Positions 4,112-43,154 of a stretch of 64,000 nt of DNA are shown piece after piece (positions within the stretch are counted from its first letter, which is position 1; the number at the start of each line of letters is the position of its first letter). The translations under genes and the position numbers were made by a program. Under the pieces are notes generated by a model, which saw only the letters and a program-made list of their open reading frames with translations, was not told where the DNA came from and ran no database searches. The stretch is taken from NCBI GenBank assembly GCA_009377755.1, contig WHTM01000001.1, positions 62,001 through 126,000 of the forward strand, given 5' to 3'. This DNA comes from Hyphomicrobiales bacterium (lineage in GTDB: Bacteria > Pseudomonadota > Alphaproteobacteria > Rhizobiales > Xanthobacteraceae).

Positions 4112-4115
4112 AGAT

Positions 4116-4128
4116 ATTATCCGATAAT
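4116..4128. promoter_or_regulatory. Palindromic operator upstream of the Xre-RES operon
   Basis: A perfect inverted repeat, ATTATC-C-GATAAT, lies 4-5 bases upstream of the antitoxin start. A related ATAATATA core inside GGAG...CTCC occurs at 4130-4145. Read on the minus strand, GATAAT also resembles a -10 hexamer, so a repressor bound here would cover the promoter. This matches the usual autoregulation of Xre antitoxins. Binding is inferred, not shown. Confidence 0.6.
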
Positions 4129-4179
4129 GGAGTATATTATCTCCAAAATCGGAAATTGCAAGGGCCGAAATCCGGCCGC

Positions 4180-4296
4180 CACCTGCGCGATCGTCATTCC
4201 CGGCAGGTCGGAGTTCACGCCGGTGACGAGGCACGCCGCAACGGTCGAGCCTGGCATGATCGTATAGGGCGACGGCGGCTCGGCGAGCGGGTGCCG
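4180..4296 (-). pseudogene. Fragment of conjugation gene trbI (VirB10 family)
   Basis: About 39 codons on the minus strand read NRHPLAEPPSPYTIMPG, then STVAACLVTGVNSDLPGMTI and AQV. This matches the start of the periplasmic domain of TrbI, the VirB10-like channel protein of Trb conjugation systems, where SPY-x-x-x-x-G and A-x-LVTG-x-NSDLPG-x-x-x-AQV are conserved. The rest of the gene is absent. The fragment begins two bases from the WYL gene and ends near the Xre operator. It indicates that a conjugative element once occupied this site. Confidence 0.7.
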
Positions 4297-4297
4297 A

Positions 4298-5095
4298 TTG
4301 AGCGTCTCCCGCTCCGACCTGGTGCGCCGCTTCGGCGTCTCCATGGGGCAGGCGTCCGCCGACATCGCGCGCTATCTCGCGCGCGATCCGCCCGGAATCG
4401 TGTACGACAAGTCGGCCAAGCGCTACGCCGCGGGACACGATTTCAAGCCGGTGCTCGCGCTGCCCGATTCCGGGCGGTTCCTCGGCGAGCTCCGCCTCGT
4501 CGATCTCGGCATCCTGCAGGCCGGCGACACCATGCTCGGCACCGTGCCGCCGTTCGACGCCACGCCGCTCCCGCAGCGGCCGATCGATCCCTTCGTGCTG
4601 CGTGCCGTCTGGCGCGCCATCCGGGAACGCTACGCGCTCGATATCCTCTACCAGTCGATGAGCCGGCCGGAGCCGGCGCGCCGGACGATCGAGCCTCATG
4701 CGCTCGCTCATGACGGATTTCGCTGGCACGCGCGCGCGTTCGACCGCGAGACCGGCGAATTCCGCGATTTCGTGCTCGGCCGGCTGTCGAAGCCAAAGCC
4801 GCGCGGCGAATCCGGCTCCGCGCCCGAGAATGATGCCGACTGGCGGACCTTCATCGAGCTCGTGATCGCACCGCATCCGGGCCTTACACCGGCGCAGGCC
4901 CGCGCGATCGCGCTCGACTACGGCATTCGCGGCCGCTCGACGTCGCTCAAGGTGCGCCGCGCGCTGCTGTTCTACGCGCTCAAGCGCCTCGGCCTCGATG
5001 TCGCGCCCGAGACGCGGCCGCCGAGCGAGCAGCACATCATCCTGGTCAACCGCAAGGATATCGAGGCTGCGCGCGTCCGGCGCGTCGAGACGTAA
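4298..5095 (+). CDS. WYL-domain transcriptional regulator, probably truncated at the N-terminus
   Basis: The 265-residue product has a partial winged helix-turn-helix (SRSDLVRRFGVSMGQASADI, residues 4-23), a linker, a WYL-like sensor domain (residues about 100-165, with RRTIEPHALAHDGFRWHARA) and a C-terminal WCX-like region. In this family (CapW/BrxR-like) the WYL domain senses a ligand and relieves repression, often beside defence or toxin genes. Homologues I recall carry about 20 more residues before the recognition helix. Here the frame is closed by TAG at 4265 and the only start is TTG 4298, directly against the trbI fragment. I therefore infer loss of the first helix by recombination. 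Function may be impaired. Confidence 0.75.
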   Translation: MSVSRSDLVRRFGVSMGQASADIARYLARDPPGIVYDKSAKRYAAGHDFKPVLALPDSGRFLGELRLVDLGILQAGDTMLGTVPPFDATPLPQRPIDPFVLRAVWRAIRERYALDILYQSMSRPEPARRTIEPHALAHDGFRWHARAFDRETGEFRDFVLGRLSKPKPRGESGSAPENDADWRTFIELVIAPHPGLTPAQARAIALDYGIRGRSTSLKVRRALLFYALKRLGLDVAPETRPPSEQHIILVNRKDIEAARVRRVET

Positions 5096-5311
5096 GAACG
5101 CGGGCATGGAAACGACACGGATCGTCACACGCGCCTGAACGGACAATCCTGACAACGCCGACATGACTGTCCGCAGCTCGAATCGCCGACCGCAGCCTCG
5201 GCCTCGCATCGCCTAAACTGCTGAGAGTGCGACATATTTTCCACATCATTTTGCTTTATTCTGCCTTCTTTGCGGGGTTATTAATCGGTCGTTGCGTCAG
5301 TAGGGGTGAGG

Positions 5312-7297
5312 ATGGCGGCTGTCGCGCGGCGAAAATTTTGGCAATTCGCCTCGCGGTGTATCGTCGGTGCGGCCTTGCTCTGGCCTTGCGGTGCGCTCGC
5401 CTTCGACTTCTTTGGGCTGTTCGGTGAGGAAAAGCCTCCTGCTGCCTCGCAGCAGGCGCTGCCATATTCGATCGCTTTCGATATCGCTGACGAATCGAGC
5501 AAGCTGAAAGAGGCACTGCAGGGAGCGTCAACTCTTTACAAATTGCGGCAGGATGCGCCGCCGGATGGCGAAACTTTGATGCGGCGAGCCGAAGGGGACC
5601 TCGCGCCTCTGCTCGACGCCCTGTGGGGGGCCGGCTACTACAACGCGACGCTCGTGATCGAGGTGGCTGGCGTACCCATACGCATCGGCCAGTCTCCGCC
5701 GTCGCGCGCCGCAGCCGCCGCGGAAGCCTACCGGGCGCGCGATGCGGTTCCCATTCACGTCAAGGTGGAGCCGGGACCGCTCTTTCGGCTGAGGGCGGTG
5801 CAGATTGTCGACGCGGGCACCGGACAACCCTTTTCACCCACCGTACTGCCACACCGAGCAATCAAGATTGCGCCGGGCGATCCTGCCCGCGCTGCCGACA
5901 TCCGGGCGGCACGTGCTGCTCTGATCGATCACTTTCGCGCACAATCGCACCCGCTGGCCAAGGTGACCGCGACCAAGCCGGTCGTCTATCATCGCCTGCA
6001 TGTGATGGATGTGGCCATTGCCGTCGAACCAGGTCCGAAGGCGCCGTTTGGCACCGTTACGGTCGCCGGCAAGTCGAATGTCGATCCTGCCGTCGTACGC
6101 TCGCACATCTATATTGAACCGGGCGACCCATACTCCCCGACAGCCGTTGCCGGCGCGCGGAAATCCGTTCTGAAGCTTCCCGCGATCAGTTCCGTCCGCA
6201 TCCGCGAGGCGCAGCAACTCGACGCGGGCGGCCGGTTGCCGACTACCGCCGAGGTGACCGACCGAAAGCCGCGCGTCATCGGTTTCTCCGCTCGATACTC
6301 CACCTTGGACGGACCCGCGGTGCGCACCTACTGGCAGCATCGCAATCTGTTTGGCGGGGCCGAGAGCCTGCGGCTGGAAGGCGAAATGTTCATTCCACCG
6401 CGATTCAACAGTTCGTTCCTCGATACTGTGGACAACTTTCGTTGGTCGGATCTCGGCGGACGGCTCAAGGCAAACTTCGTCAAGCCGGGGCTTGAGGGCA
6501 CCCGCAACGACCTGTTGCTTGACGCGATGATCGAGAAGGATCGCACCGGCGGCGATGTATTCGGGGGATATACCAGCAAGCGTGGAGAGGTCATCGCGTC
6601 GATCCGGCACCGGTTCAGCGATACGTTCTCGGCCCAAATCGGGCTGGCAGCGGAAAAGGGCGAGACCAGCGACACGCTCGGCACTGTCGACTACCAATTG
6701 TTCGGTATCCCCGCCTCGGTGACTTACGATTCAACCGACCGACCACTCGATCCAACCAAAGGCGTGCGGGTAACGGCCTCGATGACGCCCTATCCGTCGT
6801 TCCTTGGCTCCTCGGTCGGGCTGCTGGAGAGCAAAGTCAGGGCTTCGGCCTATTATGCGCTCGACGAGGAAGCCCGCATCGTGCTGGCGGGGCGCGTCGC
6901 ACTCGGCTCGATTACCGGCGATAGCCTCGGCGCGATCCCCGCCAATCACCGCTTCTATGCCGGCGGCGGCGGCTCGGTTCGCGGCTACCGCTATCGCAGC
7001 CTCAGCCCGCTCAGTCCGGCCGGTCAGGTCATCGGCGGCCGCAGCCTATTCGAGACATCGTTCGAAACGCGCATCAAGCTCACCGACACAATCGGCCTGG
7101 TGCCGTTCTTCGACATGGGCAACGCGTTCCAGTCCAGTTATCCAGACTTCAAGGATGAGCTGCGCTACGCCGCTGGCGTCGGGTTGCGCTACTACACAGC
7201 AGTCGGTCCCATTCGACTGGACGCCGCGTTCCCCCTCAACCCCCGCAACGGCGATAATTCACTCGCAATCTACATCGGTATCGGGCAGGCATTCTAA
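5312..7297 (+). CDS. tamA: Outer-membrane translocation assembly protein TamA (Omp85 family)
   Basis: TamA sits in the outer membrane and works with TamB in lipid transport and outer-membrane protein assembly. The product (about 661 residues) has a signal peptide with a hydrophobic core (FASRCIVGAALLWPCGALAF), POTRA-type repeats to about residue 290 (VHVKVEPGP and AVEPGPKAPFGTV strands) and a C-terminal 16-strand-type barrel containing the Omp85 hallmark GGGGSVRGYRY. It ends in a terminal phenylalanine, as outer-membrane barrels do. ATG 5312 is chosen because AGGGGTGAGG lies just before it. GTG 5306 is an alternative. tamB starts two bases after its stop, so they form an operon. Confidence 0.92.
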   Translation: MAAVARRKFWQFASRCIVGAALLWPCGALAFDFFGLFGEEKPPAASQQALPYSIAFDIADESSKLKEALQGASTLYKLRQDAPPDGETLMRRAEGDLAPLLDALWGAGYYNATLVIEVAGVPIRIGQSPPSRAAAAAEAYRARDAVPIHVKVEPGPLFRLRAVQIVDAGTGQPFSPTVLPHRAIKIAPGDPARAADIRAARAALIDHFRAQSHPLAKVTATKPVVYHRLHVMDVAIAVEPGPKAPFGTVTVAGKSNVDPAVVRSHIYIEPGDPYSPTAVAGARKSVLKLPAISSVRIREAQQLDAGGRLPTTAEVTDRKPRVIGFSARYSTLDGPAVRTYWQHRNLFGGAESLRLEGEMFIPPRFNSSFLDTVDNFRWSDLGGRLKANFVKPGLEGTRNDLLLDAMIEKDRTGGDVFGGYTSKRGEVIASIRHRFSDTFSAQIGLAAEKGETSDTLGTVDYQLFGIPASVTYDSTDRPLDPTKGVRVTASMTPYPSFLGSSVGLLESKVRASAYYALDEEARIVLAGRVALGSITGDSLGAIPANHRFYAGGGGSVRGYRYRSLSPLSPAGQVIGGRSLFETSFETRIKLTDTIGLVPFFDMGNAFQSSYPDFKDELRYAAGVGLRYYTAVGPIRLDAAFPLNPRNGDNSLAIYIGIGQAF

Positions 7298-29205: not shown

Positions 29206-30000
29206 CTATGCCGTGGCAACCAGCCGCAAATCCTGGCCGGTAGACACGGGTTGCCGCGCGGGAAGATCGGGAAACAGATTATCGGCCTGCGCCATGACAT
29301 GTTTCACAATCTCAGCGGTCGGCATCACATCCGCATATTTCGCATGCATGTCGCACAGATTGATGGCGTGGCTCGCCTGCGAGCGATCGAAGCAGGCGTC
29401 CTCGGCAATGGCGATGCGGTAATTAAGACTGAAGGCGTCGATCACGGTTGCGCGAACGCAGCCTGACGTCGTCGTGCCGGTCACGATCACGCTATCGGCG
29501 CCAAGCAGCGTGAGATAGCTCGCGAGATTTGAGCCGAAGAACCCGGACGGCTTCTGCTTCAGGACTACCAGGTCGTGTGGCATCGGGGCGATCGCAGGAA
29601 CGATCTCGTTGGCATCGAGATTTTGCGCCGGATGCGCAACGGTCTCGTCGGTGCGACTGTTTTTCCATGCCCAACTGCCGATATCCCAGCCATCGGGACG
29701 GGTCACGCCGGTGGTGTAGATCACCGGCATTTTGCGATCGTGAAAGGCATCGATCAGCAGCTTGATTTTGGCGATCGCATCCCAGCTTTCCGCGCCGCAG
29801 GAATTGCTCCATCGCTTGATGGAATCGAGGATCGGCTCAGGCTTGTCGCCGGCGAATCCGTAGCTGACATCGATGATGAGCAGCGCCGGGCGCTTGCCGA
29901 AACCGCCTGTTGCGCCGAAGCCAGACGCCTTGAAAACCTGCTTGTCTCGTTCGGTAAGGTAGCGGTCCCAGATTCTGGGACCTTCCTGGCGGTCCTGCAC
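29206..30000 (-). CDS. Isochorismatase-fold hydrolase (cysteine amidohydrolase type), copy 1
   Basis: The 264-residue product has the triad expected in this family: Asp44 in LLIIDVSYGF, Lys150 in VLKQKPSGFFGSN and Cys181 in TGTTTSGCVRATV. The T-S-G-C-V-R-A-T form is that of N-carbamoylsarcosine amidase-like members, which hydrolyse C-N bonds, rather than of isochorismate hydrolases proper. GTG 30000 is chosen because it lies beyond the stop of the previous gene and follows GAGG. The longer reading starting at 30033 overlaps that gene. It is a close tandem paralogue of the gene at 30011-30775. It ends the ABC-importer operon. Confidence 0.85.
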   Translation of the reverse strand: MQDRQEGPRIWDRYLTERDKQVFKASGFGATGGFGKRPALLIIDVSYGFAGDKPEPILDSIKRWSNSCGAESWDAIAKIKLLIDAFHDRKMPVIYTTGVTRPDGWDIGSWAWKNSRTDETVAHPAQNLDANEIVPAIAPMPHDLVVLKQKPSGFFGSNLASYLTLLGADSVIVTGTTTSGCVRATVIDAFSLNYRIAIAEDACFDRSQASHAINLCDMHAKYADVMPTAEIVKHVMAQADNLFPDLPARQPVSTGQDLRLVATA

Positions 30001-30010
30001 TGTTCTGTCC

Positions 30011-30775
30011 TCAATAATTGGCGGCGGCGGCAAGTTGTGGGGGAGCCCCCTTAGGCAGCTCGAACATGCCCGCGGGCAGCGCGTCGAAGAAGGCCAGCAC
30101 TTCGCCGGCTTTCACTACATCCGCATATTTCGCATTCATGTCGCAAAGATTGATCGCATGGCTCGCCTGCGAGCGATCGAAGCAGCCTTCCTCCGCCAAC
30201 GCGACCCGGAAGTTCAGACTGAAAGCATCAAGCACCGTGGCACGGACACATCCGGACGTCGTGGTCCCTGTCACGATGACGCTGTCGCATCCGAGCAGAG
30301 TGAGGTAGCTGCTCATATTGGTGCCGAAGAAGCCGGATGGCTTCTGCTTGTAGACTACAATGTCCTGCGGCGCCGGCGCGATCTCGTCGACGATCTGGTT
30401 GCCGTCGATGTTGCTCGTTGGCACCTTGGGCCGTTCATTACCGCGGCTATTCTTCCAACTCCACGAGCCGGAATCCCAGTTGTCCTCGCGCCGCACGCCG
30501 GTCGTGTAGATGACCGGGATGCCTTTCTCATGCGCCTTGTCGATCAGCGACCTGATCGCCGCGACGGCCGGCCAGCTCTCCTCGCCGCAGGAATTGCGCC
30601 AGCGCTTGATCGATTCGAGAATCGGCTCCGGCTTGTCGCCGCAGAACGCATAGTTCACATCGATCACAAGCAGCGCCGGACGCTTGCCGAAACCGCCGCG
30701 GGTCCCGTAGCCGGAGGCCGCAAAGACCGCCTTATCCCGCTCGGTGAGAAATTCATTCCAAACTGGTTCTGACAT
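30011..30775 (-). CDS. Isochorismatase-fold hydrolase (cysteine amidohydrolase type), copy 2
   Basis: This 254-residue paralogue of the preceding entry matches it along its whole length, with the shared stretches GGFGKRPALL-x-IDV, GDKPEPIL-SIKRW and SQASHAINLCDM. The triad is Asp39, Lys145 and Cys176. A conserved N-terminal block, FLTERDKAVFAASGYGTRGG, precedes the fold. The two copies probably act on related substrates or form a mixed oligomer. GGGGAGA precedes the ATG. It follows the binding-protein gene by 42 bases, which ties hydrolysis to import. Confidence 0.87.
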   Translation of the reverse strand: MSEPVWNEFLTERDKAVFAASGYGTRGGFGKRPALLVIDVNYAFCGDKPEPILESIKRWRNSCGEESWPAVAAIRSLIDKAHEKGIPVIYTTGVRREDNWDSGSWSWKNSRGNERPKVPTSNIDGNQIVDEIAPAPQDIVVYKQKPSGFFGTNMSSYLTLLGCDSVIVTGTTTSGCVRATVLDAFSLNFRVALAEEGCFDRSQASHAINLCDMNAKYADVVKAGEVLAFFDALPAGMFELPKGAPPQLAAAANY

Positions 30776-30817
30776 TGCCGCTCTCCCCTTTCATTCATCA
30801 TTCCGCAGACGGGCTGT

Positions 30818-31834
30818 CTATTTCTTCATCGCAAGCGTCGCCTTAACGAATTGCATGTCAATGATCTCGTCGTAGGCGACGTCCTTTTTGAGAATCCCGG
30901 CATTGCGGACAACCATGCCGCCGGTCTTCCAGGATTCGGGAGAAACCATACCGTCCTTGCTCCACAGTTCGTCTGCAAAGGAGCGATCGAGCGTCGCCTT
31001 GAGATCGGTGGTCGACATGGTCGGGAATTCCTTCTTGGCGACGGCGACCGCCTTGTCCCGCTCAGCATAGGTGAACTTCAGGCCCTTGACGACGCCCTTG
31101 ACGAAGGCGGCGACCAATTCCGGCTCTTCCTTGATGGAGGCCAGCCGGACGTTAAGGGTTGAATAGGCATAGGGACCGAGCTCCTTCGGCACGTTGTAGA
31201 TCGGCTCACCCCAGATTCGCTGCACGATGCCGCGCGTCAGAATCGGTTCGGTCGTCACGCCGATGTCGGCGTTGCCGGTCTTGACCACGGCAAGCACCGC
31301 GCCGTTCGACATCTCTTTGATCACAACATCCTTCTTGGCGTCGAGGCTCCACTTCGACAGCAGATAGCGGGTGATGGAGTTTGGCGTGCCGCCGTAGAAA
31401 CTGACCGCAATCGCCTTACCCTTGAAGAAGCCGGCCATTGACTCACCAGGTTTTAGCACTAGGCCGGTCTTCGCGACATAATAGACGTTGCCGCGATCGA
31501 CCACATTCGCGACCGCGCGCAGCTCAGCGCCCTTGATCTTGGCGAAGGCGTTGTGCTCGGGACCGCCAATGAATGCAAAGGCCTGTTTTGTAAGGACGGC
31601 GTTAGTATGCGCGCCGCCGCCTTCCACTGTGATGACTTTCACATCGAGATTATCGGCCGCAAAGTATCCGTTGTGAATCGCCACATATAGCGGCAGATAG
31701 CCCGTGCTGTGCACCGGCTCCGCGACGACGAGGGTCCTCCTTTCGGCGGCTTGCGCAGCGGGCGACGTGAACAGCCCGGCGAGCCCTGCCAGGACGGCGA
31801 GCATTGCTGCATTTTTTCTGATGATTGCTTTCAT
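30818..31834 (-). CDS. ABC importer substrate-binding protein (NMT1/SsuA family), system A
   Basis: A periplasmic binding protein of 338 residues with a signal peptide (LAVLAGLAGLFTSPAAQAAE) and the SsuA/ThiY-like fold: VHSTGYLPLYVAIHNGYFAA near the N-terminus, GKAIAVSFYGGTPNSITRYL in the hinge region and EPELVAAFVKGVVKGLKF in lobe 2. Members bind small organic molecules such as sulfonates, taurine, nitrate or pyrimidines. The ligand here is unknown. GGAG lies nine bases before the ATG. It stands between its permease and two hydrolases, so the cargo is probably their substrate. Confidence 0.88.
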   Translation of the reverse strand: MKAIIRKNAAMLAVLAGLAGLFTSPAAQAAERRTLVVAEPVHSTGYLPLYVAIHNGYFAADNLDVKVITVEGGGAHTNAVLTKQAFAFIGGPEHNAFAKIKGAELRAVANVVDRGNVYYVAKTGLVLKPGESMAGFFKGKAIAVSFYGGTPNSITRYLLSKWSLDAKKDVVIKEMSNGAVLAVVKTGNADIGVTTEPILTRGIVQRIWGEPIYNVPKELGPYAYSTLNVRLASIKEEPELVAAFVKGVVKGLKFTYAERDKAVAVAKKEFPTMSTTDLKATLDRSFADELWSKDGMVSPESWKTGGMVVRNAGILKKDVAYDEIIDMQFVKATLAMKK

Positions 31835-31879
31835 GTGAGGTCTCCTTGCTGGTTCGGCACCGTCGAAAAAAGAAGGAAG

Positions 31880-32755
31880 TCAGTGGACGACTCCCTTGCG
31901 AAGAACTTTCTCCAGCCATGCGACGGTGACGTACATCACCATCGAAAGCGCAGAGAGGATCAGGACCGCGACCCATACCAGCGAGATCTCGTAGGTCGAG
32001 CCTGCATAGAGAATCGTGCGCCCCAAGCCGTGCTGGGATGAGACGAATTCCCCGACGATCGATCCGGTAAGGGCCAGGCCGATATTCACGCGTAGGATCG
32101 AGACGATCCATGGAATACAGGACGGCACGACGAGCTTCTTGAACACCTGCCAGCGGCTGGCGCCGAGCGAATAGAACAGCCGCTCCTGATCCCTATCGAC
32201 CGCCTGCACGCCGGCGTATGCCGTAAGCGTCGAGACCACCACCGTCAGCGCAGTGGCGGTCGCAACCTTTGACGACAATCCCATACCGAAGACCAAGACG
32301 ATGAGCGGCGCCAGCGCGAGCTTCGGAATTGATTCGAGGCAGATGATGTAGGGCTGCACGATCTGCGCATAGTTGCGCGACCACCAGAAAGACATGCCGA
32401 GCACCGCACCGCCAGTGGTTCCGATGATGAAGCCGAAGATGGTCGAACGAAACGTGAAAGCGATGTCGGTAAAGGCGTCACCCTGCGTCAGGAAGATGAC
32501 GAGCGTCGACCAGATCGAGCTCGGCTGTGACCAGAAGAACGGATCGATGATCTTGAATTCCGCAGCGACCTCCCAGAGAACGACAAAGCCCACCAGAACA
32601 GCAAGTTGAAGGGCAACGAGCGCGGTCGTGCTCCAGATTTTCTGAACAGGCAATTTGCGTGCGATTTTGCGCTGTGTCGTGGCTCCTTTTGCTCCATCAC
32701 TCAATCGCGCGACACCCAAAATGCGGCCAGGCAAACCGAGAGCCTTTGCATTCAT
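31880..32755 (-). CDS. ABC importer permease, system A
   Basis: The 291-residue inner-membrane protein has about six helices and the BPD-transp-1 coupling motif SLGASRWQVFKKLVVPSCIP (residues about 200-220), which contacts the ATPase. The preceding segment LALAPLIVLVFGMGLSSKVA is typical of SsuC/TauC permeases. A 40-residue basic N-terminus precedes the first helix. GGAGAAAAAGCCAC comes before the ATG. It lies 35 bases after its ATPase gene and 45 before its binding protein. Confidence 0.9.
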   Translation of the reverse strand: MNAKALGLPGRILGVARLSDGAKGATTQRKIARKLPVQKIWSTTALVALQLAVLVGFVVLWEVAAEFKIIDPFFWSQPSSIWSTLVIFLTQGDAFTDIAFTFRSTIFGFIIGTTGGAVLGMSFWWSRNYAQIVQPYIICLESIPKLALAPLIVLVFGMGLSSKVATATALTVVVSTLTAYAGVQAVDRDQERLFYSLGASRWQVFKKLVVPSCIPWIVSILRVNIGLALTGSIVGEFVSSQHGLGRTILYAGSTYEISLVWVAVLILSALSMVMYVTVAWLEKVLRKGVVH

Positions 32756-32790
32756 GTGGCTTTTTCTCCGGTCTAAACGCCCATTTCGAG

Positions 32791-33585
32791 CTACGCAGCA
32801 GCCGCTTGCGGCGGCTGGCCTGCGGCTGTGCGAAGCAGATCGAGGCAGTATTGTTTCATCGCGACGAAACGAGGCGAGCTGACGACGGAGCGCTCGCGCG
32901 GACGCGGCAAATCGATCGACATTTTGTCGATGATTCGCCCTGGCCGGCTTGCCATGACGTAAATGTCATCGGACAGGAAAATCGCTTCCTCGACGTCGTG
33001 GGTGACGAAGATCACTGTGCGGCCGAAGTCGCGGAATAACTGTAGAAGCCATTCCTGCATCTGCGACTTGGTTTGCGCATCTAGCGCGCCGAACGGCTCA
33101 TCGAGCAGGATGACGTCGACGTCAATCAGCAAGGTGCGCAGTAGCGCAGCGCGCTGGCGCATCCCGCCAGACAGCGCGGAAGGATAGCGTTTCTCAAACC
33201 CACCAAGACCATAGCGCTGCAGCAACGGAAGCGCGCGCTCGCGCGCCTCAGCCATCGGAACGCCGCGGATTTCCATGCCAAGCGCAACGTTGTCGAGAAC
33301 AGTGCGCCACGGCAGCAACAGGTCTTTCTGCAGCATGTAGCCGACCTGACCGATCGTTCCCGTCGCGTCCTCGCCATCGATCATGACCCTGCCGGTCGTC
33401 GGTGGTTGCAGTCCTGCCGTGATGTTGAAGATTGTGCTCTTGCCGCAACCCGAAGGCCCGATCAGCGATACGAATTTTCCGGCCGGCACTTCGAAGTCGA
33501 TAGGGGCGAGCGCGGTAAAATTGAGGTCTTCGGACCTGAACACCATTGAGACATGTTCGAGCACGAGCTGAGGCTGAACGTTCAT
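32791..33585 (-). CDS. ABC importer ATPase, system A (SsuB/TauB type)
   Basis: The 264-residue product has Walker A (GPSGCGKST), the signature SALSGGMRQRAALLRTL, Walker B with the catalytic Glu (VDVILLDEPFGALDAQT) and the switch His (FVTHDVEEA). ATG 33585 is chosen because GGAG stands six bases before it and the product then begins NVQPQLVLEHVSMVF. The open frame runs on to 33702, but that part lies over a palindromic repeat and has no family likeness. It is the first gene of the five-gene operon ATPase, permease, binding protein, two hydrolases. Confidence 0.92.
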   Translation of the reverse strand: MNVQPQLVLEHVSMVFRSEDLNFTALAPIDFEVPAGKFVSLIGPSGCGKSTIFNITAGLQPPTTGRVMIDGEDATGTIGQVGYMLQKDLLLPWRTVLDNVALGMEIRGVPMAEARERALPLLQRYGLGGFEKRYPSALSGGMRQRAALLRTLLIDVDVILLDEPFGALDAQTKSQMQEWLLQLFRDFGRTVIFVTHDVEEAIFLSDDIYVMASRPGRIIDKMSIDLPRPRERSVVSSPRFVAMKQYCLDLLRTAAGQPPQAAAA

Positions 33586-33652
33586 GTGGCACTCCATGAT
33601 GGCCGATGGCCGCGCCATCAGACCGAACGGATCGCATGCAACTTCCAGACCG

Positions 33653-33725
33653 CTAGTGCCCCGCTTCCGAAGTTCGTGATCCATTGCAGCACCCTCTGAC
33701 ACGAACTTCGGAAGCGGGGCACTAG
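33653..33725. repeat. Long inverted repeat 1 between the two importer operons
   Basis: Two perfectly complementary 26-base arms (33653-33678 and 33700-33725) begin and end with CTAG and contain CCGCTTCCGAAGTTCGTG. They flank a 21-base loop. The hairpin lies between the end of importer B and the start of importer A. Palindromes of this form, with CTAG termini, recur in intergenic DNA of Bradyrhizobium relatives as far as I recall. It may act as a terminator or RNA-stability element. Confidence 0.8.
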
Positions 33726-33738
33726 CAAGGCTATGATT

Positions 33739-33815
33739 CTAGTGCCGCTTTCGATTTGAAGTTCCTGAATGAGCTTGCCGCAAGTGGTGCAGGAACTTCA
33801 AATCGGCGGCGCTAG
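33739..33815. repeat. Long inverted repeat 2, overlapping the stop of the system B permease
   Basis: A second CTAG-ended palindrome has a left arm at 33739-33767 (core GATTTGAAGTTCCTG) and a right arm at 33790-33815 (core CAGGAACTTCAAATC), with a few mismatches near the ends. The right arm contains the TAG stop of the system B permease. It lies only 13 bases from inverted repeat 1. Two such elements side by side suggest repeated insertion at one site or a double terminator. Confidence 0.8.
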
Positions 33816-34696
33816 TTCCCACCGCCGACGCCGCCATGACGGCGCAGCACCGTTGATTCCAGCGCTTGAATGCCTATGAACAAAAGTGAAGAGATCACGG
33901 CAAGAACGACGATTGCCGTCATCACCAGATTCATCTGGAAAATCTGGCTGCCATAGGTGATCAGATACCCAAGCCCAGCCTTTGCCGCCTGGAACTCACC
34001 AACGACGACGCCGACCAGAGCGAGTCCCACGTTGACCTTCAAAGCCGCAATCATCGTCGGAACGCTGCCTGGCAGCACAACCTTGGTCAGCACCTTGAGG
34101 CGCGAGGCGCCAAACAGCCGGACAAGCTTGATCTTGTCCTCATCGACCGCCTGGAAGCCGGTGTACAGCATCAGGATCGTCACGAACACGCTGATCGCGA
34201 TCGCCATGGCGTAGATCGAGGCGATGTCGCCGAGCCAGATGTAGAAGATCGGCACCAGCGCGATTTTCGGGATGGCATTGAGCACGACGATGAACGGATC
34301 GAGGACGCGATAAACATAGGACGACCACCAGAGAACGACGGCGCAGAAGGTGCCGAGCAGCATGCCGCCGACGAATCCAACCACGGTCTCGGACAGGGTC
34401 ACCAGCGTGTGGGTGGTCAGGCTCCCATCCTGCAACATCCTCGTGAATGTCCGCGCTATAGCGCTCGGATAGCTCGTCAGCATCGGATTGATCCAGCCGG
34501 CGCGCGGCGCCACTTCCCACACCACCAGCAGCGCGGCGACGAGGCCGATCTGCCAGAGCTGGATCGACAATGCCCGGCGCTTCAGCGACCGCAGATAGGC
34601 CGCATAGGCGGCACTCGGCGCCGACGCCGGCGCACTACCGGACCGTGGCGCAAACCGCACGAAGTGAGACAGGGCCGCCTTTGTGCTGGTCATCAT
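33812..34696 (-). CDS. ABC importer permease, system B
   Basis: The roughly 294-residue protein has the same layout as the system A permease: a basic N-terminus, helices from IQLWQIGLVAALLVVWEV onward, LNAIPKIALVPIFYIWLGDI and the ATPase-coupling motif LFGASRLKVLTKVVLPGSVP. Two adjacent ATGs (34696 and 34693) are possible starts. Both fit closely behind the ATPase stop at 34711. The stop codon falls within an inverted repeat. It is the last gene of the system B operon. Confidence 0.9.
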   Translation of the reverse strand: MMTSTKAALSHFVRFAPRSGSAPASAPSAAYAAYLRSLKRRALSIQLWQIGLVAALLVVWEVAPRAGWINPMLTSYPSAIARTFTRMLQDGSLTTHTLVTLSETVVGFVGGMLLGTFCAVVLWWSSYVYRVLDPFIVVLNAIPKIALVPIFYIWLGDIASIYAMAIAISVFVTILMLYTGFQAVDEDKIKLVRLFGASRLKVLTKVVLPGSVPTMIAALKVNVGLALVGVVVGEFQAAKAGLGYLITYGSQIFQMNLVMTAIVVLAVISSLLFIGIQALESTVLRRHGGVGGGN

Positions 34697-34710
34697 CGGT
34701 TGCTGATCTC

Positions 34711-35520
<810 letters not shown>

Positions 35521-35539
35521 CGTTGGTATTTCCTGCTGC

Positions 35540-36559
35540 CTATTTGCTGGCGAGTTTCTTGGTGGCGCTTTCGCCGTAGGAGGTATCGACGATCTTGTCG
35601 TAGGCGACTTCCTTGCCGACCGGCAGCACATCGCCCACCACCATGATCTCCTGCGCCTTCGCAGGGCCGCCCTTGTCGACGACCGTGCTGGTCGCCCAGA
35701 TCGGCACACCGACGGTGCGGTAGCGATTGACCACGGCGATGTTGTCGTCGATCGTCAGCCCCGGGAAAAACGGCGCGATCGCTTCCGCAATCTCGCGCTC
35801 GCTGGCCGTCTGCACCCAGACCTGGGCGCGCGCGATTGCGTTGGTCCACTTCTGTGCGATGGCCTGGTTTTTCTCGAGCCAGCCCTTCTTGGCGAAGAAC
35901 ACGGTGTAGTCGGCGCGGCCAACTTCCTTGCCGATCGAGGTGATGAGATGGGCATGCCCCGCTCCGACGAGCTTGGTCAGATTCGGCTCATTGAAGATGG
36001 CGAAGTCGCCGACGCCGGAGATCCAGGCCCCGTCGCGAGCGGCATGGCCGACATTGGTGATGATGCCGTTTACCGTCGCGGCAGCCACCTTGTGCTGCTT
36101 GAGCACATATTCGAGATAGAGTTCCGGTGTGCTGCCCGGGCGCCAGCCGAGCACCTTCTTGCCGTCGATCATCGACCACTTGAAATTGTCGATCTTCCTG
36201 CGCGAGGCAAGGAACAGTCCGTCGGTCGCCGTCAGCGCGCAAAAGATGACCGGCTTGTCGGGCGATTCGCCATTGTAGATGTAGATCGGCACTTCTGGAC
36301 CGGCGAGCGCGAAATCGGCTTGGCCGGACAGGATCATCGCACCAGCGCGGTCGCCGCCGTTGGTGGTGATGAGCGAAACGTCGAGCCCTTCGCTCTTCAC
36401 GAAACCTTTGCTGAGCGCAACATACATCGGCACATAGAACTGCGACCTCACGACCTCGGCCATTTTGACCTTGATGAGATCCGCGGCATTTGCCGCCGAA
36501 AGGGTCAAGACTGCGGCAACAGCAGACCATGCAACGCGGCTGACGATCCTCTTGAGCAT
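35540..36559 (-). CDS. ABC importer substrate-binding protein (NMT1 family), system B
   Basis: The 339-residue protein has a signal peptide (KRIVSRVAWSAVAAVLTLSA, then ANAA) and an NMT1-like fold: VRSQFYVPMYVALSKGFVKS, then GGDRAGAMILSGQADFALAG and EVPIYIYNGESPDKPVIFC. It differs clearly from the system A binding protein, so the two importers should have different ligands. AAAGGACC lies before ATG 36559. It heads its operon and is divergent from a third hydrolase gene, with a palindrome in the shared promoter region. Confidence 0.88.
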   Translation of the reverse strand: MLKRIVSRVAWSAVAAVLTLSAANAADLIKVKMAEVVRSQFYVPMYVALSKGFVKSEGLDVSLITTNGGDRAGAMILSGQADFALAGPEVPIYIYNGESPDKPVIFCALTATDGLFLASRRKIDNFKWSMIDGKKVLGWRPGSTPELYLEYVLKQHKVAAATVNGIITNVGHAARDGAWISGVGDFAIFNEPNLTKLVGAGHAHLITSIGKEVGRADYTVFFAKKGWLEKNQAIAQKWTNAIARAQVWVQTASEREIAEAIAPFFPGLTIDDNIAVVNRYRTVGVPIWATSTVVDKGGPAKAQEIMVVGDVLPVGKEVAYDKIVDTSYGESATKKLASK

Positions 36560-36589
36560 CGGTGGTCCTTTCGTCATCGAGAGCTGCAT

Positions 36590-36602
36590 GTTGCACTGCA
36601 AC
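36590..36602. promoter_or_regulatory. Palindrome in the divergent promoter of importer B and the third hydrolase
   Basis: GTTGCA-C-TGCAAC is a perfect 6-1-6 inverted repeat at 36590-36602, inside a wider GCATG...CATGC pair (36586-36610). It lies 31 bases before the importer start, within the 266-base divergent gap, and could be an operator for a regulator of both units. The rest of that gap shows no gene. Confidence 0.5.
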
Positions 36603-36825
36603 AGACATGCCAACATTCCAAGATGGGTCGATGATTGGAACCACAGGACTTTTTGCATCGATGCGCTGCTGCGCGCCCACGGCCTGTGCTGCGCTTCGCG
36701 GCAGGGCGCCTATGAAACAGACGGCGGCACGGTCAGGCGATGGCGTGCGGAGGCGGAAATTCCACGGCTCTTCTTCGGCATGCTATTTGCTGCGGTGTGT
36801 GCGCGAGTTCCTGAAGGAGATTCAG

Positions 36826-37524
36826 ATGCACAAGCTTTCAATCCCCACCGAACTGACCGAGCGCGTGACCCGGCGCGCCGGCCGTGCGCACCCGTTCGAT
36901 GTCCTGCAACCGTCGAAGACGGCATTCGTCGTCGTCGACATGCAGAATTACTTCATGCACCCCGACTATCAGGGCGAAGTGCCGATGGCACGGGAGATCG
37001 TTCCGGACGTCAACCGGCTCGCCGCCGCCATACGCGAGGCGGGAGGTCATGTCGTATGGGTGAAGAACGCGACCAACGATACCCGCGAAAGCTGGTCGGT
37101 ATTCCATGACTGGCTGATGACGCCGGACCGGCGCGACCGCCGCTATGCCACCATGGATACCGCACATGAGGGCCATGCATTATGGCCCCTGCTCGACGCT
37201 AAGCCGCAGGACGCCCAGATTGTGAAGAAGCGCTTCAGCGCTTTCATCCAGGGTTCGTCCGAGATCACCACCTATCTACGTAACCGCGGCATCGATACGA
37301 TTCTGATCGGGGGCACCGCCACCAACGTCTGCTGCGAAAGTTCCGCCCGCGACGCGATGATGCTGAATTTCAAGACGGTGATGGTGCACGACGCGCTTGC
37401 TACCTATACCGACGAGGAGCACAACGCCACGCTGAGAACGTTCTATTCGATCTTCGGCGACGTGCAAACAGTCGACGAGGCGATCGAATCGCTGAAGCGC
37501 GGTCTCGCCATGAAGGCAGCCTGA
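36826..37524 (+). CDS. Isochorismatase-fold amidohydrolase, RutB-like branch
   Basis: The 232-residue product belongs to the cysteine hydrolase superfamily, with Asp38 in VVVDMQNYF, Lys135 in IVKKRFSAF and Cys169 in GTATNVCCESSARDAM. The T-x-T-N-V-C-x-E-S-x-A-R-D-A form is typical of ureidoacrylate or biuret-type amidohydrolases (RutB and relatives), so it is not a close paralogue of the two hydrolases at 29-31 kb. GAAGGAGA stands before the ATG. It is divergent from importer B and precedes the nitrile hydratase locus. Its substrate is unknown; an amide or ureide is likely. Confidence 0.87.
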   Translation: MHKLSIPTELTERVTRRAGRAHPFDVLQPSKTAFVVVDMQNYFMHPDYQGEVPMAREIVPDVNRLAAAIREAGGHVVWVKNATNDTRESWSVFHDWLMTPDRRDRRYATMDTAHEGHALWPLLDAKPQDAQIVKKRFSAFIQGSSEITTYLRNRGIDTILIGGTATNVCCESSARDAMMLNFKTVMVHDALATYTDEEHNATLRTFYSIFGDVQTVDEAIESLKRGLAMKAA

Positions 37525-37901: not shown

Positions 37902-38888
37902 ATGGAATCTGCAACGCGGTCGATCCGGACCACAGTCCTGACAGGTTTTCTCGGGGCTGGAAAGACGACCCTGCTGAATCACATTCTCTCGCGTCAAGGC
38001 ACGCAGCGGGTTGCTGTCATCGTCAATGAGTTCGGGGAAGTCGGCATCGACGGTCAGCTCGTCATCAGCGCCGAGGAGAACATCCTTGAGCTCAACAACG
38101 GGTGCATTTGCTGCACGGTTCGCGGTGATCTGACGCGTGCCGTGGCCAACCTGCTCGCGAGCGGCCGCGCGATCGACCACATCCTGATCGAGACCACCGG
38201 GCTCGCCGATCCGGCTCCCGTCATCCAATCGTTCGTCCTGGATGAGACGTTGCGATCCAATACGGAGCTCGACGCGATTGTTACCGTAGTTGACGCGCAA
38301 TACGTAGTCGAGCAGATGCAAAACGAACAGGCCCGCGAGCAGGTTGTGTTCGCCGATGTGATCCTGATCAACAAGGCCGACCTCGTATCCGAACGCAGCC
38401 TTGAGGATCTCGATCGCCTGCTTAGATCCCTCAATCCGCTCGCCAGAATTCATCGCACGACGAACTGCGAGATCGATCTTGGTCACGTGCTCGGCGTGTA
38501 CGCCTTCGACCTCAAAAACGCGCTGAAGCTCGACCCGCAGCTGTTGGCCGACAGCACGCATGAGCACACTGCGGATATTTCCTGTGTCGCCATCCGCGAG
38601 CCGGGTGCAGTCGATGCCACGCTGTTGACGCGCTGGCTTAACCAGCTGGTTCAAGAGCAGGGCAAGGACCTGCTGCGGATCAAGGGGATCATCGACCTCG
38701 ATGGCGAAAGCAGGCGGTTCGTCTTCCACGGCGTTCACATGACGCTCGACGGCCGTCCAGGACGGCCGTGGAAGCCGGCGGAGCCGCGGATCAACGAGCT
38801 GGTGTTCATCGGCCGGAATCTCGACCCGCTCGCGTTGCGTAAGGGATTCGCCGGCTGCGGAGTCGCCGCCTTGGCTCTGATCTCGTGA
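37902..38888 (+). CDS. CobW/P47K-family GTPase, putative nitrile hydratase metal activator
   Basis: The 328-residue product is a G3E GTPase with Walker A GFLGAGKTT (residues 15-23), the metal-binding GCICC motif (residues 67-71), the ETTGLADPAPV switch and the NKADLVSE specificity motif, followed by a CobW C-terminal domain. Proteins of this family insert or deliver cobalt, zinc or iron. In several nitrile hydratase operons a P47K/CobW-like gene is needed for activity. Position at the head of the run, 39 bases before the beta subunit, supports a cobalt role for that enzyme. Confidence 0.87.
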   Translation: MESATRSIRTTVLTGFLGAGKTTLLNHILSRQGTQRVAVIVNEFGEVGIDGQLVISAEENILELNNGCICCTVRGDLTRAVANLLASGRAIDHILIETTGLADPAPVIQSFVLDETLRSNTELDAIVTVVDAQYVVEQMQNEQAREQVVFADVILINKADLVSERSLEDLDRLLRSLNPLARIHRTTNCEIDLGHVLGVYAFDLKNALKLDPQLLADSTHEHTADISCVAIREPGAVDATLLTRWLNQLVQEQGKDLLRIKGIIDLDGESRRFVFHGVHMTLDGRPGRPWKPAEPRINELVFIGRNLDPLALRKGFAGCGVAALALIS

Positions 38889-38927: not shown

Positions 38928-39646
38928 ATGAAGCTGCAGCATTACCTCGGAGGTCTTGAAGACCTGGGACCCGTGGCATTCGAGAGGCGGGTGTTCGTCG
39001 AGCCATGGGAGAAGCGCATCTTCGGCATTCACGTGGCGATGATGGCGCTGAGCACGCAATTGCCGCTACCGCAGACGCCGAGCGGCTTCAAGACCTCTGG
39101 ACCTGGGCGGATTTGCGCAAAGGCGCGGAGTCGCTCAATCCGTTCGACTATTTCAAATACCGCTACTACGAGAAGTGGCTGGGCGGCATCTCCGGCTACT
39201 TCGTTGACAACGGCTACATCACCGAAGCCGAGCTCGAGGCGCGCACGCAGCAGATCCTGAAAAACCCCGGTACTCCGCCGAAAATGGGCGGCGATTCGGC
39301 GATCGACAAGCGCGTTGTCACCTACCTGGTCGAAGGCGACTCCCCAAAGCGCGACACCAACATGAAGCCGCGCTTCAGCGCCAGCGAAAAGGTGCTGGTC
39401 AAGAACGTGCCGACCATCGAGCACACGCGTCTCCCCGGCTACTTGCGCAACAGGACCGGCGTCATCGATACGGTCTATCCCGGGACCTACACCTACCTCA
39501 CCTCGACGGGACCCGACGGAGTCGGGGAGGCGATGCCGGTCTACTGTGTGCGCTTCGACCCGGAAGCGATCTGGCCGGGTAACACGGAAAAGAACGTGAC
39601 GATCTATGCCGATCTCTACGAGGCCTATCTCGACAAGCTCAACTGA
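38928..39646 (+). pseudogene. nthB: Nitrile hydratase beta subunit with a -1 frameshift
   Basis: From ATG 38928 (GAGGAG upstream) the first frame reads the family start MKLQHYLGGLEDLGPVAFER and EPWEKRIFGIHVAMMALSTQ, up to TPSGFKT. The expected continuation, LWTWADLRKGAESLNPFDYF, then YEKWLGGISGYFVDNGYI, lies in the neighbouring frame and runs to TGA at 39644-39646. Restoring one C in GACCTC near 39,100 joins them into about 239 residues, a normal beta subunit with the C-terminal SH3-like barrel (IDTVYPGTYTYL, EAIWPG). As written, the first frame ends at 39,260 after unrelated residues. The cause is either a real inactivating deletion or a sequencing error. No slippery heptamer is seen. Confidence 0.88.
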
Positions 39647-39694
39647 TACTCGCGCGCTGGCTGGCGAGTGCGACCCGGCGGTCACGGCGCGGTC

Positions 39695-39808
39695 ATGCGG
39701 GAGTTGGGAGAGGGCGCGAACGGCGGCGCCGCTCCCGATGTCGGGCCGAACGATTTCCCGCCGGACGACGCGCATCTGATCGCGATGAATGAAAGGACCA
39801 AGCCATGA
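39695..39808 (+). CDS. Possible 37-residue ORF coupled to the alpha subunit
   Basis: Between the beta and alpha genes an ATG opens a 37-codon frame rich in Gly, Asp and Pro (NDFPPDDAHLIAMNERTKP at its end). Its TGA overlaps the alpha-subunit ATG by four bases (ATGA). It lies in the same frame as the end of the beta gene, beyond its TGA. No ribosome site is obvious. It could be a tiny coupled protein, a leader that couples translation, or chance. Confidence 0.25.
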   Translation: MRELGEGANGGAAPDVGPNDFPPDDAHLIAMNERTKP

Positions 39809-40575
39809 GCACGCATCCAGAGAATTCACTTCAGGACTCCGTGAACATCACCAAGGACGACGCCATCACTCGTCTCTCTCGGCGCAAGCTGCTGCTGGCG
39901 AGCTCGGCCGCCGCCGTGGCTCCGGCGATCGGCGGCGGCTTGGTCAAAACCGCCAACGCGCAGCAGCAACCGCAGCGCTTCGAATATCCAGTCGACCGGG
40001 AAGCCCGCAGCGCCGCACGGGCGCTCGCGCTCGAAGCGCTTTTGATCGAGAAGGGGGTCATCACCGGCGATACGGTCGACACCGTGCTATCGTTCTTCGA
40101 GACGCAGATGGGACCGTTCAACGGCGCCAAGGTCGTCGCCCGTGCCTGGGTCGATCCCGCGTTCAAGCAGGAGCTGGTCAAAGACACGCCGGCAGCAATC
40201 GCGAAGCTCGATCTGCCCAAGGGCATGGCCGGCGCCGAAGGGGAACACATGCGTGCCGTCGCGAACTCGCCGACGGTCCACAATCTCATCATCTGCACCT
40301 TATGCTCCTGTTATCCGTGGCCGGTGCTGGGCCTGCCGCCCTATTGGTACAAAGATCCGACCTTCCGCGCGCGGGCTGCGCGCGAGCCGCGTGCGGTGCT
40401 CAACGAGTTCGGACTCAACATCGCTCCCTCGGTCGAGATCAAGACCTGGGACAGCAGCGCGCAGATCCGGTGGTTCGTGATCCCCGAGCGGCCGTCCGGC
40501 ACCGATGGCATAAGCGAAGCCGAACTCGCGAAGCTGGTCACGCCTGAGGGCATGATGGGCGTTGCGCGGGCCTAG
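39805..40575 (+). CDS. nthA: Cobalt-type nitrile hydratase alpha subunit with a Tat-like signal peptide
   Basis: Nitrile hydratase adds water to nitriles to give amides. The 256-residue product has the metal claw Cys164-Thr-Leu-Cys167-Ser-Cys169 (CTLCSC); Thr in the second place marks the cobalt type. The region around it, SPTVHNLIICTLCSCYPWPV, and EHMRAVANSP are family standard. Residues 1-52 are foreign to ordinary alpha subunits: a polar stretch, then SRRKLLLASSAAAVAPAIGG and a likely cleavage site after KTANA. That is a twin-arginine signal layout. AAAGGA precedes the ATG. Thiocyanate hydrolase gamma is a related alternative. The separate beta gene and accessory gene favour nitrile hydratase. 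Confidence 0.9.
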   Translation: MSTHPENSLQDSVNITKDDAITRLSRRKLLLASSAAAVAPAIGGGLVKTANAQQQPQRFEYPVDREARSAARALALEALLIEKGVITGDTVDTVLSFFETQMGPFNGAKVVARAWVDPAFKQELVKDTPAAIAKLDLPKGMAGAEGEHMRAVANSPTVHNLIICTLCSCYPWPVLGLPPYWYKDPTFRARAAREPRAVLNEFGLNIAPSVEIKTWDSSAQIRWFVIPERPSGTDGISEAELAKLVTPEGMMGVARA

Positions 40576-40623: not shown

Positions 40624-41154
40624 ATGCAAACCCGGTTCGAGCACTTCGCGGTGACCAGCATGCTGGGGCAAAGCGGTTCCCCACCGCGCCTCGACGGCAA
40701 GCTCTGCTTCAGCGAGACCTGGGAGCGGCAGGCATTCGGCGTCGCGCTCGCTCTCTCCAAGAGCGGGCATTTCGACTGGGAGGATTTTAGGCAAAAGCTC
40801 ATCGCCGCGATCGGCGAGTGGGAGAGTTCGCATTCCCTCGACAACCCATCGTGGAGCTACTACGAGCGCTGGCTCACCGCGCTCGAACGGCTCGTCGTCG
40901 AGCAGCGGCTTGCGACGCCTGAGGAGCTCGCGGCGATCGAAGGCCTGGTCATCGACGCCCGGTGCTCGAGCGGCGAAGAGGCCGAGACAAGTGCTGCAAG
41001 CGTGCTGGCCGGCAGCGGCGAAGCCGCAGGTCTCGATTCGGCGGAGATAATGTCCGGAGATCCGGCGGGCGGCGCCCGATCCCAAAGTGCGGATGATGCA
41101 AGAACTGCAACGCGCCACCATGAGCGTTCAACACAGGAGTCTCACCATGACTGA
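40624..41154 (+). CDS. Nitrile hydratase accessory protein (beta-subunit-like N-domain)
   Basis: The first 110 residues resemble the N-terminal helical part of nitrile hydratase beta subunits: PPRLDGKLCFSETWERQAFG, then GHFDWEDFRQKLIAAIGEWE and WSYYERWLTALERLVVEQ. Such short beta-like proteins are known activators that bind the alpha subunit and help cobalt insertion. The C-terminal 60 residues are Ser/Ala/Glu rich with His pairs (RHHERSTQESHHD), possibly metal binding. AAAGGA precedes the ATG. The last codons overlap the cbtB start by eight bases, so translation is coupled. Confidence 0.85.
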   Translation: MQTRFEHFAVTSMLGQSGSPPRLDGKLCFSETWERQAFGVALALSKSGHFDWEDFRQKLIAAIGEWESSHSLDNPSWSYYERWLTALERLVVEQRLATPEELAAIEGLVIDARCSSGEEAETSAASVLAGSGEAAGLDSAEIMSGDPAGGARSQSADDARTATRHHERSTQESHHD

Positions 41155-41332
41155 CACGTCGCAATCGCTGCCGCTTGTGCGCGCAACCGCCGAACCGTCG
41201 ACGCTGTTCGCGATGCTCATCGCCTCCAGCCTGGGCGCCGCTCTGGTCTTTACCGTCGGCTTCGCCCATCCGGAACTCATCCACAACGCGGCGCACGACT
41301 GGCGCCACTCGATGAACTTTCCCTGCCACTGA
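41147..41332 (+). CDS. cbtB: Cobalt transporter subunit CbtB
   Basis: The 61-residue protein has one membrane helix (STLFAMLIASSLGAALVFTV) and the CbtB C-terminal motif FAHPELIHNAAHDWRHSMNF-PCH, whose histidines suit cobalt binding. CbtB and CbtA form a predicted cobalt uptake system, usually found near cobalamin genes under a B12 riboswitch. Here no riboswitch was seen, and the gene overlaps the nitrile hydratase accessory gene by eight bases. That ties cobalt uptake to this enzyme. Confidence 0.87.
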   Translation: MTDTSQSLPLVRATAEPSTLFAMLIASSLGAALVFTVGFAHPELIHNAAHDWRHSMNFPCH

Positions 41333-41342
41333 GGAACGCGCC

Positions 41343-42080
41343 GTGCTCCAGAGAATCCTGATGTGCGCGGGACTCGCGACCGGAACGCTACTGTCCGGCT
41401 TGCACGCGATGCTGACCGTACCGCTCATCCTGCGTGCCGAAATCTACGAGGCGCGGGCGAGTTCCGGTCCCGCCTCGACCAGCACGCATGAGCACAGCGA
41501 CGACGCGGCTGCGCATCACCATGACGACCACGCGAACGCGGATGATGATGCGGAGGGCTGGGCGCCGACGGGACTGCAACGCGTCGGACTGACTCTGCTG
41601 GCGACGATCTTGTCCACCGTCGGTTTCTCATTGATACTGGTCTCCGCCGCGGTCTATGGGCGCGGCGAGCTCACCATCTTAAGCGGCCTCGGGTTCGGGA
41701 TCGCCGGCTTTGCCGCGACCGGGCTCGCGACCAGTCTCGGCCTGGCGCCGGAGCTTCCGGGCAGCGCGGCGGCCGGCCTCGTCCTGCGACAGGCGTGGTG
41801 GTTCGGCACCGCGGTTTCGACCGCCGCGGGTCTCGCGGCGATCGTCTTCGGTCCTCGTCTTGCGTTCAAGATTCTCGGCCTCGTCCTCATCGTCGCGCCG
41901 CATGCGGTGGGGGCTCCTGGCGCCGAGATGGCCGGCAGCCCGGTGCCAGCGGAGCTTTCCGCGCTGTTCGCGGCGAGATCATTGGCTCTTCAGGGCCTGA
42001 TGTGGGTCCTGCTGGGCCTGATCTGCGGCTGGATCTGGGAGCGGCAGGCCCGGCGGCTCGGCGATCCCGTTCCCACATAA
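41343..42080 (+). CDS. cbtA: Cobalt transporter subunit CbtA
   Basis: The 245-residue membrane protein has about five helices, beginning with RILMCAGLATGTLLSGLHAM. A His/Asp-rich periplasmic or cytoplasmic loop (THEHSDDAAAHHHDDHANAD) precedes the second helix, and the family motif HAVGAPGAEMAGSPVPAEL lies in the third quarter. It starts at a GTG ten bases after cbtB. The pair should import Co2+ for the cobalt centre of the nitrile hydratase. It closes the run of tightly spaced genes. Confidence 0.87.
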   Translation: MLQRILMCAGLATGTLLSGLHAMLTVPLILRAEIYEARASSGPASTSTHEHSDDAAAHHHDDHANADDDAEGWAPTGLQRVGLTLLATILSTVGFSLILVSAAVYGRGELTILSGLGFGIAGFAATGLATSLGLAPELPGSAAAGLVLRQAWWFGTAVSTAAGLAAIVFGPRLAFKILGLVLIVAPHAVGAPGAEMAGSPVPAELSALFAARSLALQGLMWVLLGLICGWIWERQARRLGDPVPT

Positions 42081-42161: not shown

Positions 42162-43154
42162 ATGCGGATCGCGCTTCTCGCCCCCCCGGGTGTCCAGGCG
42201 CTCGATGTGGTTGGACCTGCGGAGGTATTTTGGGAGGCGGCGCGCCGCCTCGGTGATCCAACCGCCTATGAAGTGCAGGTGGTGGGAACGAAGGAGGGGC
42301 CGGTTTGCGGCACCGGAAGCCTGCGTTTCGTGGCGGACCGAACCATCTATGATTCGGATACGCCCATCGACACGTTGCTCGTCGCCGGCGATCCGTCCTT
42401 TGACGAAATCGATCCGGCGGTGATCGCCTGGCTCAAGCGCCGCGTGCCTTCGGTCCGGCGCTACGGTTCGGTCTGCACCGGTGTGTTCCTGCTCGCCGCG
42501 ACGGGACTGCTCGATGGCCGGCGTGTGACCACACACCGGGAATGGGCCGCCAAACTCACACGCGAGTATCCGAACCTGGTCGTCGATCCGGACCAGATTT
42601 TCATCTACGACGGTGCGCTGTGCACGACGGCAGGCGTCACCGCCGGAATGGACCTGGCGCTCGCGCTGGTGGAAGAGGATTTCGGGCGCGAGCTCGCCCT
42701 CATCGTGGCCCGCTACATGGTGATGTTCCTCAATCGGCCGGGCGGTGCGCATCTGGCGGCGCAGATGTCGAGCAAGACCAGCATCCAGCGATCGCAGGAA
42801 TATGTGCTTGAGAATCTGTCGGCCGATCTCTCCGTGGGTTCGCTGGCGCTGGGTGCCGGCATGAGCCCTCGCAACTTCGCGCGCGTCTTCCGCCGCGAGA
42901 TGAAGGTGACGCCGGCCGAATTCGTCGAGGCGGCGCGCCTCGACGCCGCGCGGCGCTTGCTCGTGGACACAACGGCGCCGCTGCAGCGCATCGCGCACAC
43001 CTGCGGCTTCGGCAACGTGGACGGAATGCGGCGTACCTTCGTTCGCAATATCGGCATCAGTCCGCTCGATTATCGGAAGAGATTCCGCACCTCATGGTCG
43101 GGCATTCGTGAGCCTGTCGAGGCGAATACGGCCCGGAGACTGCAGATCCTTTGA
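42162..43154 (+). CDS. GlxA-family AraC-type regulator (DJ-1/PfpI plus helix-turn-helix)
   Basis: The 330-residue product has an N-terminal DJ-1/PfpI-like domain (PPGVQALDVVGPAEVFWEAA; elbow Cys in YGSVCTGVFLLAATGLLDGR) and a C-terminal AraC DNA-binding domain (LSVGSLALGAGMSPRNFARV and RIAHTCGFGNVDGMRRTF). AraC-type regulators govern several nitrile-degrading operons. This one lies 81 bases after cbtA on the same strand and probably controls the nitrile hydratase run, the hydrolases or the importers. Its ligand is unknown. No clear ribosome site except GGGCCGGG near the ATG. Confidence 0.87.
   Translation: MRIALLAPPGVQALDVVGPAEVFWEAARRLGDPTAYEVQVVGTKEGPVCGTGSLRFVADRTIYDSDTPIDTLLVAGDPSFDEIDPAVIAWLKRRVPSVRRYGSVCTGVFLLAATGLLDGRRVTTHREWAAKLTREYPNLVVDPDQIFIYDGALCTTAGVTAGMDLALALVEEDFGRELALIVARYMVMFLNRPGGAHLAAQMSSKTSIQRSQEYVLENLSADLSVGSLALGAGMSPRNFARVFRREMKVTPAEFVEAARLDAARRLLVDTTAPLQRIAHTCGFGNVDGMRRTFVRNIGISPLDYRKRFRTSWSGIREPVEANTARRLQIL

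Follow-up and report, generated by a model that had tools for sequence, protein, structure and literature searches.

A Tat-type leader on the alpha subunit of a cobalt-type nitrile hydratase, and its predicted export

Introduction

Enzymes that hydrolyse nitriles are stated to be intracellular (PMC13402890), and a search of the literature found no report of an exported nitrile hydratase (NHase). An intracellular location limits the use of NHase on polymers or on nitriles that permeate poorly. An earlier note on a 64,000-nucleotide stretch of a Hyphomicrobiales genome (contig WHTM01000001.1, positions 62,001 to 126,000; here called the window) described an NHase alpha subunit that begins with a twin-arginine (Tat)-type signal peptide, and proposed that the beta subunit could be carried along. 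Is this leader genuine, how did it come to stand on an NHase subunit, and could it take an active enzyme out of the cytoplasm?

Results

The protein behind the leader is a cobalt-type NHase alpha subunit

The alpha gene (39805–40575) encodes 256 residues, of which residues 1–52 (MSTHPENSLQDSVNITKDDAITRLSRRKLLLASSAAAVAPAIGGGLVKTANA) form a leader ahead of a normal Co-type NHase alpha subunit; the translation of 39805–39963 is MSTHPENSLQDSVNITKDDAITRLSRRKLLLASSAAAVAPAIGGGLVKTANAQ. PF02979 matches residues 69–254 (E 9e-81), TIGR01323 gives 285 bits (cut-off 250), and the best PDB matches are Co NHases. With known Co-type NHases (PF02979/PF02211; PDB 1IRE, 2DPP, 3HHT) the protein has the alpha domain and the CTLCSC claw in common. 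The claw, C164-T165-L166-C167-S168-C169, is invariant or nearly so across 45 sequences, and the invariant residues of NHase alpha subunits, including C164, C167 and C169, are kept. The core is also homologous to the gamma subunit of thiocyanate hydrolase (TIGR03887), but the score lies below that profile's cut-off (168 versus 291 bits). Against the nearest relative, dN/dS of alpha is about 0.09, a rough value with synonymous sites near saturation. In a poorly resolved tree, the window alpha falls among cobW-linked alphaproteobacterial NHases, on an end branch of 0.25 compared with 0.085–0.15 in close alphaproteobacterial neighbours (L084, 0.12; L004, 0.085). The protein behind the leader is thus a Co-type NHase alpha subunit.

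Table 1. Features of the NHase gene cluster in the window
Feature	Coordinates	Strand	Basis or remarks
CobW-family GTPase	37902–38888	+	Conserved neighbour of the cobW-linked NHase type
NHase beta gene	38928–39646	+	PF21006 and PF02211, TIGR03888; frame broken at ~39093–39096; no signal peptide
Beta–alpha spacer, 158 nt	39647–39804	+	Part of ~280-nt insertion; carries 37-codon ORF and SD-like GAAAGGA
Tat-type signal peptide of NHase alpha, residues 1–52	39805–39960	+	Motif, profile and composition tests
Mature Co-type NHase alpha	39961–40575	+	PF02979, TIGR01323, claw C164-T-L-C-S-C169
NHase accessory/activator protein	40624–41154	+	TIGR03889
CbtB cobalt transporter subunit	41147–41332	+	Profile matches
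CbtA cobalt transporter subunit	41343–42080	+	Profile matches
AraC-family regulator (DJ-1/PfpI + HTH)	42162–43154	+	Conserved neighbour

The leader has the anatomy of a Tat signal peptide

The n-region (residues 1–28) includes S25-R26-R27-K28 and runs into L29-L30-L31. It is followed by an Ala-rich h-region (residues 29–47) of 19 uncharged residues with a mean Kyte-Doolittle value of 1.82, which is moderate hydrophobicity, and by a c-region that ends in TANA, where A50-N-A52|Q53 makes a good A-x-A site with predicted cleavage at A52|Q53. Lys48 places a basic residue in the c-region, as is typical of Tat signals. Residues 25–33 (S-R-R-K-L-L-L-A-S), the Ala-rich core and the A-x-A site are as the earlier note had described them. 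The S-R-R-x-hydrophobic-hydrophobic motif of the TatP-type regular expression is present in the n-region (S25-R-R-K-L-L), and 1.7% of 200,000 shuffled leaders satisfy the same expression. A fuller rule, RR.[FGAVML][LITMVF] plus core plus A-x-A, was met by only 0.27% of 200,000 shuffles, so the pattern is not a product of chance.

Profile searches gave scores under the curated cut-offs. TIGR01409 (TAT_signal_seq) aligned over its full length (1–29 of 29) at leader residues 24–52 with 13.5 bits (cut-off 16.7), and PF10518 scored 13.4 (cut-off 22.7); we do not class the protein among proven Tat substrates. As a yardstick for TIGR01409 we used six other RR N-termini from the host genome and its family; four of these scored (11.8, 13.2, 13.9 and 16.7) and two gave no match. 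Since other Tat-type N-termini score between 11.8 and 16.7 or not at all, the cut-off is not decisive here. No TIGR01409 match was obtained with a copy of the leader mutated from RR to KK, nor with a hand-scrambled copy.

The best look-alikes of the leader were sought in 297 genomes of the family, and each of the 17 that could be read carries RR close to the start of an ORF. The ones checked belong to secreted or cofactor proteins, among them arylsulfatase/sulfatases, molybdopterin oxidoreductase, amine oxidase, TolB, TctC, and solute-binding and sulfate-binding proteins. The Tat-type leaders of arylsulfatases and further exported proteins within this bacterial family follow a similar pattern (SRRNLLLAS...AQAQ) with about 40–55% identity over 30–40 residues, but the proteins that bear them have no homology to the window alpha beyond the leader. 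In an AlphaFold model the leader is a low-confidence tail (41–62) with one helix at residues 17–36, apart from a confident core (mostly 80–98). A Sec signal or a plain membrane anchor was considered and rejected, the RR pair, moderate hydrophobicity and c-region Lys all favouring Tat. Altogether, the RR motif, core, A-x-A site, Lys48 and full-length TIGR01409 alignment bear out a Tat-type extension on alpha, and very probably the leader could send a suitable cargo out through Tat.

The leader is confined to the window lineage among the alpha genes read

Alpha subunits were searched for in overlapping sets of 200 relatives, 392 family, 385 class and 398 phylum genomes, with 80 loci from species genomes and plasmids as further sources. 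N-termini were read for 184 distinct alpha genes among the matches listed, a large sample though not all NHases. Only the window alpha (1 of 184) combines an RR pair, a core and an A-x-A site in front of the domain; the 183 other alpha genes read among the matches listed yielded no second genome with the leader, which makes it a singleton. Relatives' loci in which the match extended into the leader (query starts at 22 or higher) were read and carried no RR leader, and 0 of the 149 plasmid records with a match cover 80% of alpha's first 150 residues. The nearest relatives (82–83% identical) start with MNNRFEYP, MSDRFQYP or similar, shortly past the beta stop. According to the earlier note, a missing Arg pair in close homologues would refute the Tat signal. 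The pair is indeed missing, together with the entire extension, from all of them. Since, however, the extension is a module of about 280 nt that was added, and not a shared N-terminus that has degraded, we take its absence elsewhere to mean a gain in this lineage and not to refute the signal.

The leader lies in an insertion within a conserved cluster

The order cobW-beta-alpha-activator-(cbtB-cbtA)-araC is conserved in relatives' clusters, and those of rhizobia, Azospirillum and Xanthobacter resemble the window in gene order, activator and cobalt uptake genes, with identity up to 83%. Compared with known Co-type NHases and these clusters, the window alone has the 52-residue Tat-type leader, about 280 extra nt between beta and alpha, and a frameshift in beta. 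In the relatives' loci printed, beta and alpha overlap by 4 nt at the closest and stand 63 nt apart at the widest. In the nearest same-family relative (L003/L084), alpha starts 15 nt past the beta stop, and the distance from beta LY(A/E)AY to alpha RFEYP is 63 nt in L003 versus 347 nt in the window, a gain of about 280 nt. The leader thus appears to have arrived with a lineage-specific insertion, and on sequence comparison spacer and leader together are such an insertion in an otherwise conserved cluster. With cleavage at the predicted site, mature alpha would start QQQPQRFEYP, nearly the N-terminus of its relatives.

DNA and protein searches in the host's own genome and in relatives named no donor for the insert, returning short generic Tat-leader or GC-rich matches. 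The stop of the 37-codon spacer ORF (39695–39808) overlaps the alpha start (ATGA). Its homologue search gave weak matches only (best E 0.001), and the spacer is mildly gene-like in GC by codon position when read in beta's frame. This ORF may be the tail or a fragment of a donor gene.

The host genome also encodes TatC. A second NHase set, in the order alpha-beta-activator, lies on contig 88 (L188, G000:C88:81000-91000; alpha 3866–4501, beta ~4500–5160, activator 5295–5684), and its alpha has a His-rich N-terminus and no leader. Multiple NHase genes were seen elsewhere: four matches to NHase alpha lie in the genome of G021, the nearest same-family relative (C187, C172, C274, C162), and two cyanobacterial contigs (L052, L060) hold two different alpha/beta sets inside about 5 kb. 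The window cluster is adjoined at 29206–36658 (minus strand) and 36673–37524 (plus strand) by genes for two NMT1-type solute-binding proteins, two ABC permeases, an ABC ATPase and three isochorismatase-family hydrolases, possibly a neighbourhood for nitrile/amide uptake and breakdown.

The beta reading frame is broken

Beta starts MKLQHYLGGL as in relatives and has no signal of its own. Its frame changes at ~39093–39096 through a 1-nt deletion relative to all relatives read: the window has AAGACCTCTGG where the nearest relative has AAGACGATCTGG, and full codons are kept in the other relatives read. Over a longer stretch, the window reads TTCAAGACCTCTGGACC and L003, with one base more, TTCAAGACGATCTGGACC. 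Programmed −1 frameshifting was rejected, as no slippery heptamer was found by eye and relatives encode beta without a shift. The suggestion that beta could travel with alpha therefore stands in part: beta lacks a signal and TatC is present, but beta is frameshifted in the assembly, which the earlier note had missed. A genuine deletion would mean a dead enzyme and make the question of hitchhiking moot; if it is a sequencing error, the operon is intact.

Alternative explanations

Translation of alpha might begin at an internal codon past the RR pair, in which case the protein would stay in the cytoplasm and the upstream frame would go unused. The alpha frame contains GTG 39841, GTG 39916 and TTG 39940, and the start in question would be TTG 39940 or GTG 39916. 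For TTG 39940, GGCGG runs offer some anti-SD pairing by computation, and the protein would be only about 8–9 residues longer than relatives' N-termini. However, GC by codon position in the leader (0.60/0.52/0.81) is gene-like and close to that of the alpha core (0.65/0.49/0.83), the Shine-Dalgarno-like GAAAGGA precedes ATG 39805 at a fitting distance, and shuffled or scrambled sequence does not give the full Tat profile match. We consider initiation downstream of the RR pair improbable. Less credence still is due to a misassembly that joined spacer and leader to alpha. The genome is a draft of 95 contigs with an unexplained frameshift nearby, but the fusion is exactly in frame within a conserved gene cluster, and the spacer-leader DNA occurs once in the host genome, with other matches short and partial, so there is no repeat to misjoin.

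More weight attaches to a decaying operon, in which the insertion and a Tat leader that works, as judged by sequence, are present, beta is truly frameshifted, no active NHase is made or exported, and the function falls to the second, conventional NHase, on contig 88. The missing base against full codons in relatives, the leaderless second set and the longer end branch of alpha all fit decay. Against it, the break is the sole disruption seen across beta, alpha, activator, cobW and cbtBA, and the two beta halves are otherwise well conserved (pairwise dN/dS ~0.10 and 0.23, rough values with synonymous sites near saturation), so that any break must be recent or an error; single-base indels are a common error of draft assemblies. 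On balance we regard decay as unlikely, though a serious competitor.

Discussion

What the data support directly are the leader, its fusion to alpha, its uniqueness in the sample, the conserved cluster and TatC. The best explanation, which we favour by a little, is that a cytoplasmically matured cobalt NHase has been retargeted to Tat with beta as a hitchhiker. An ordinary alphaproteobacterial cobW-beta-alpha-activator-cbtBA-araC operon would have gained the insertion in the window lineage only, and with it a Tat signal peptide in frame with alpha, along with a new ribosome-binding site and a start codon. CbtAB would import cobalt, CobW and the activator would aid loading, and alpha, still in the cytoplasm, would fold round its Co(III) Cys claw and pair with beta, a maturation order that we infer. 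The Tat translocase would then carry the folded complex out, and cleavage after ANA-52 would leave a near-ancestral N-terminus on alpha. Retargeting in this form presupposes that the beta frameshift is a sequencing error.

Co-transport of beta as a hitchhiker is the model that suggests itself, because the Tat features lie on alpha, TatC is in the genome and beta has no signal. Signal-less partner subunits pass Tat in E. coli HybOC and PaoABC (PMC4273604). Like the window NHase with its Tat-type leader, each of these enzymes has one subunit with a Tat signal; metal or cofactor assembly before export and a signal-less partner are also what we infer for the window NHase. They are unrelated to NHase, and for them export and partner dependence are experimentally shown. 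In both, the signal-bearing subunit stays in the cytoplasm without its partner (PMC4273604), which is why the beta frameshift matters for export. Given this frameshift and the lack of a second leader among the alpha genes read, we predict export of an active alpha-beta NHase with confidence at or barely above an even balance.

Chances are about equal that this is the first naturally exported (periplasmic) NHase, arisen by recent capture of a Tat signal onto an assembled, metal-loaded two-subunit enzyme. If so, passage through Tat and activity outside are possible for an enzyme with an oxidised Co-Cys claw. The locus would then illustrate clearly how, in nature, capture of a signal peptide can give an existing enzyme a new location, and the relatives that are not exported would serve as ready-made controls. 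For the organism, a periplasmic NHase would let the cell hydrate nitriles ahead of their entry into the cytoplasm.
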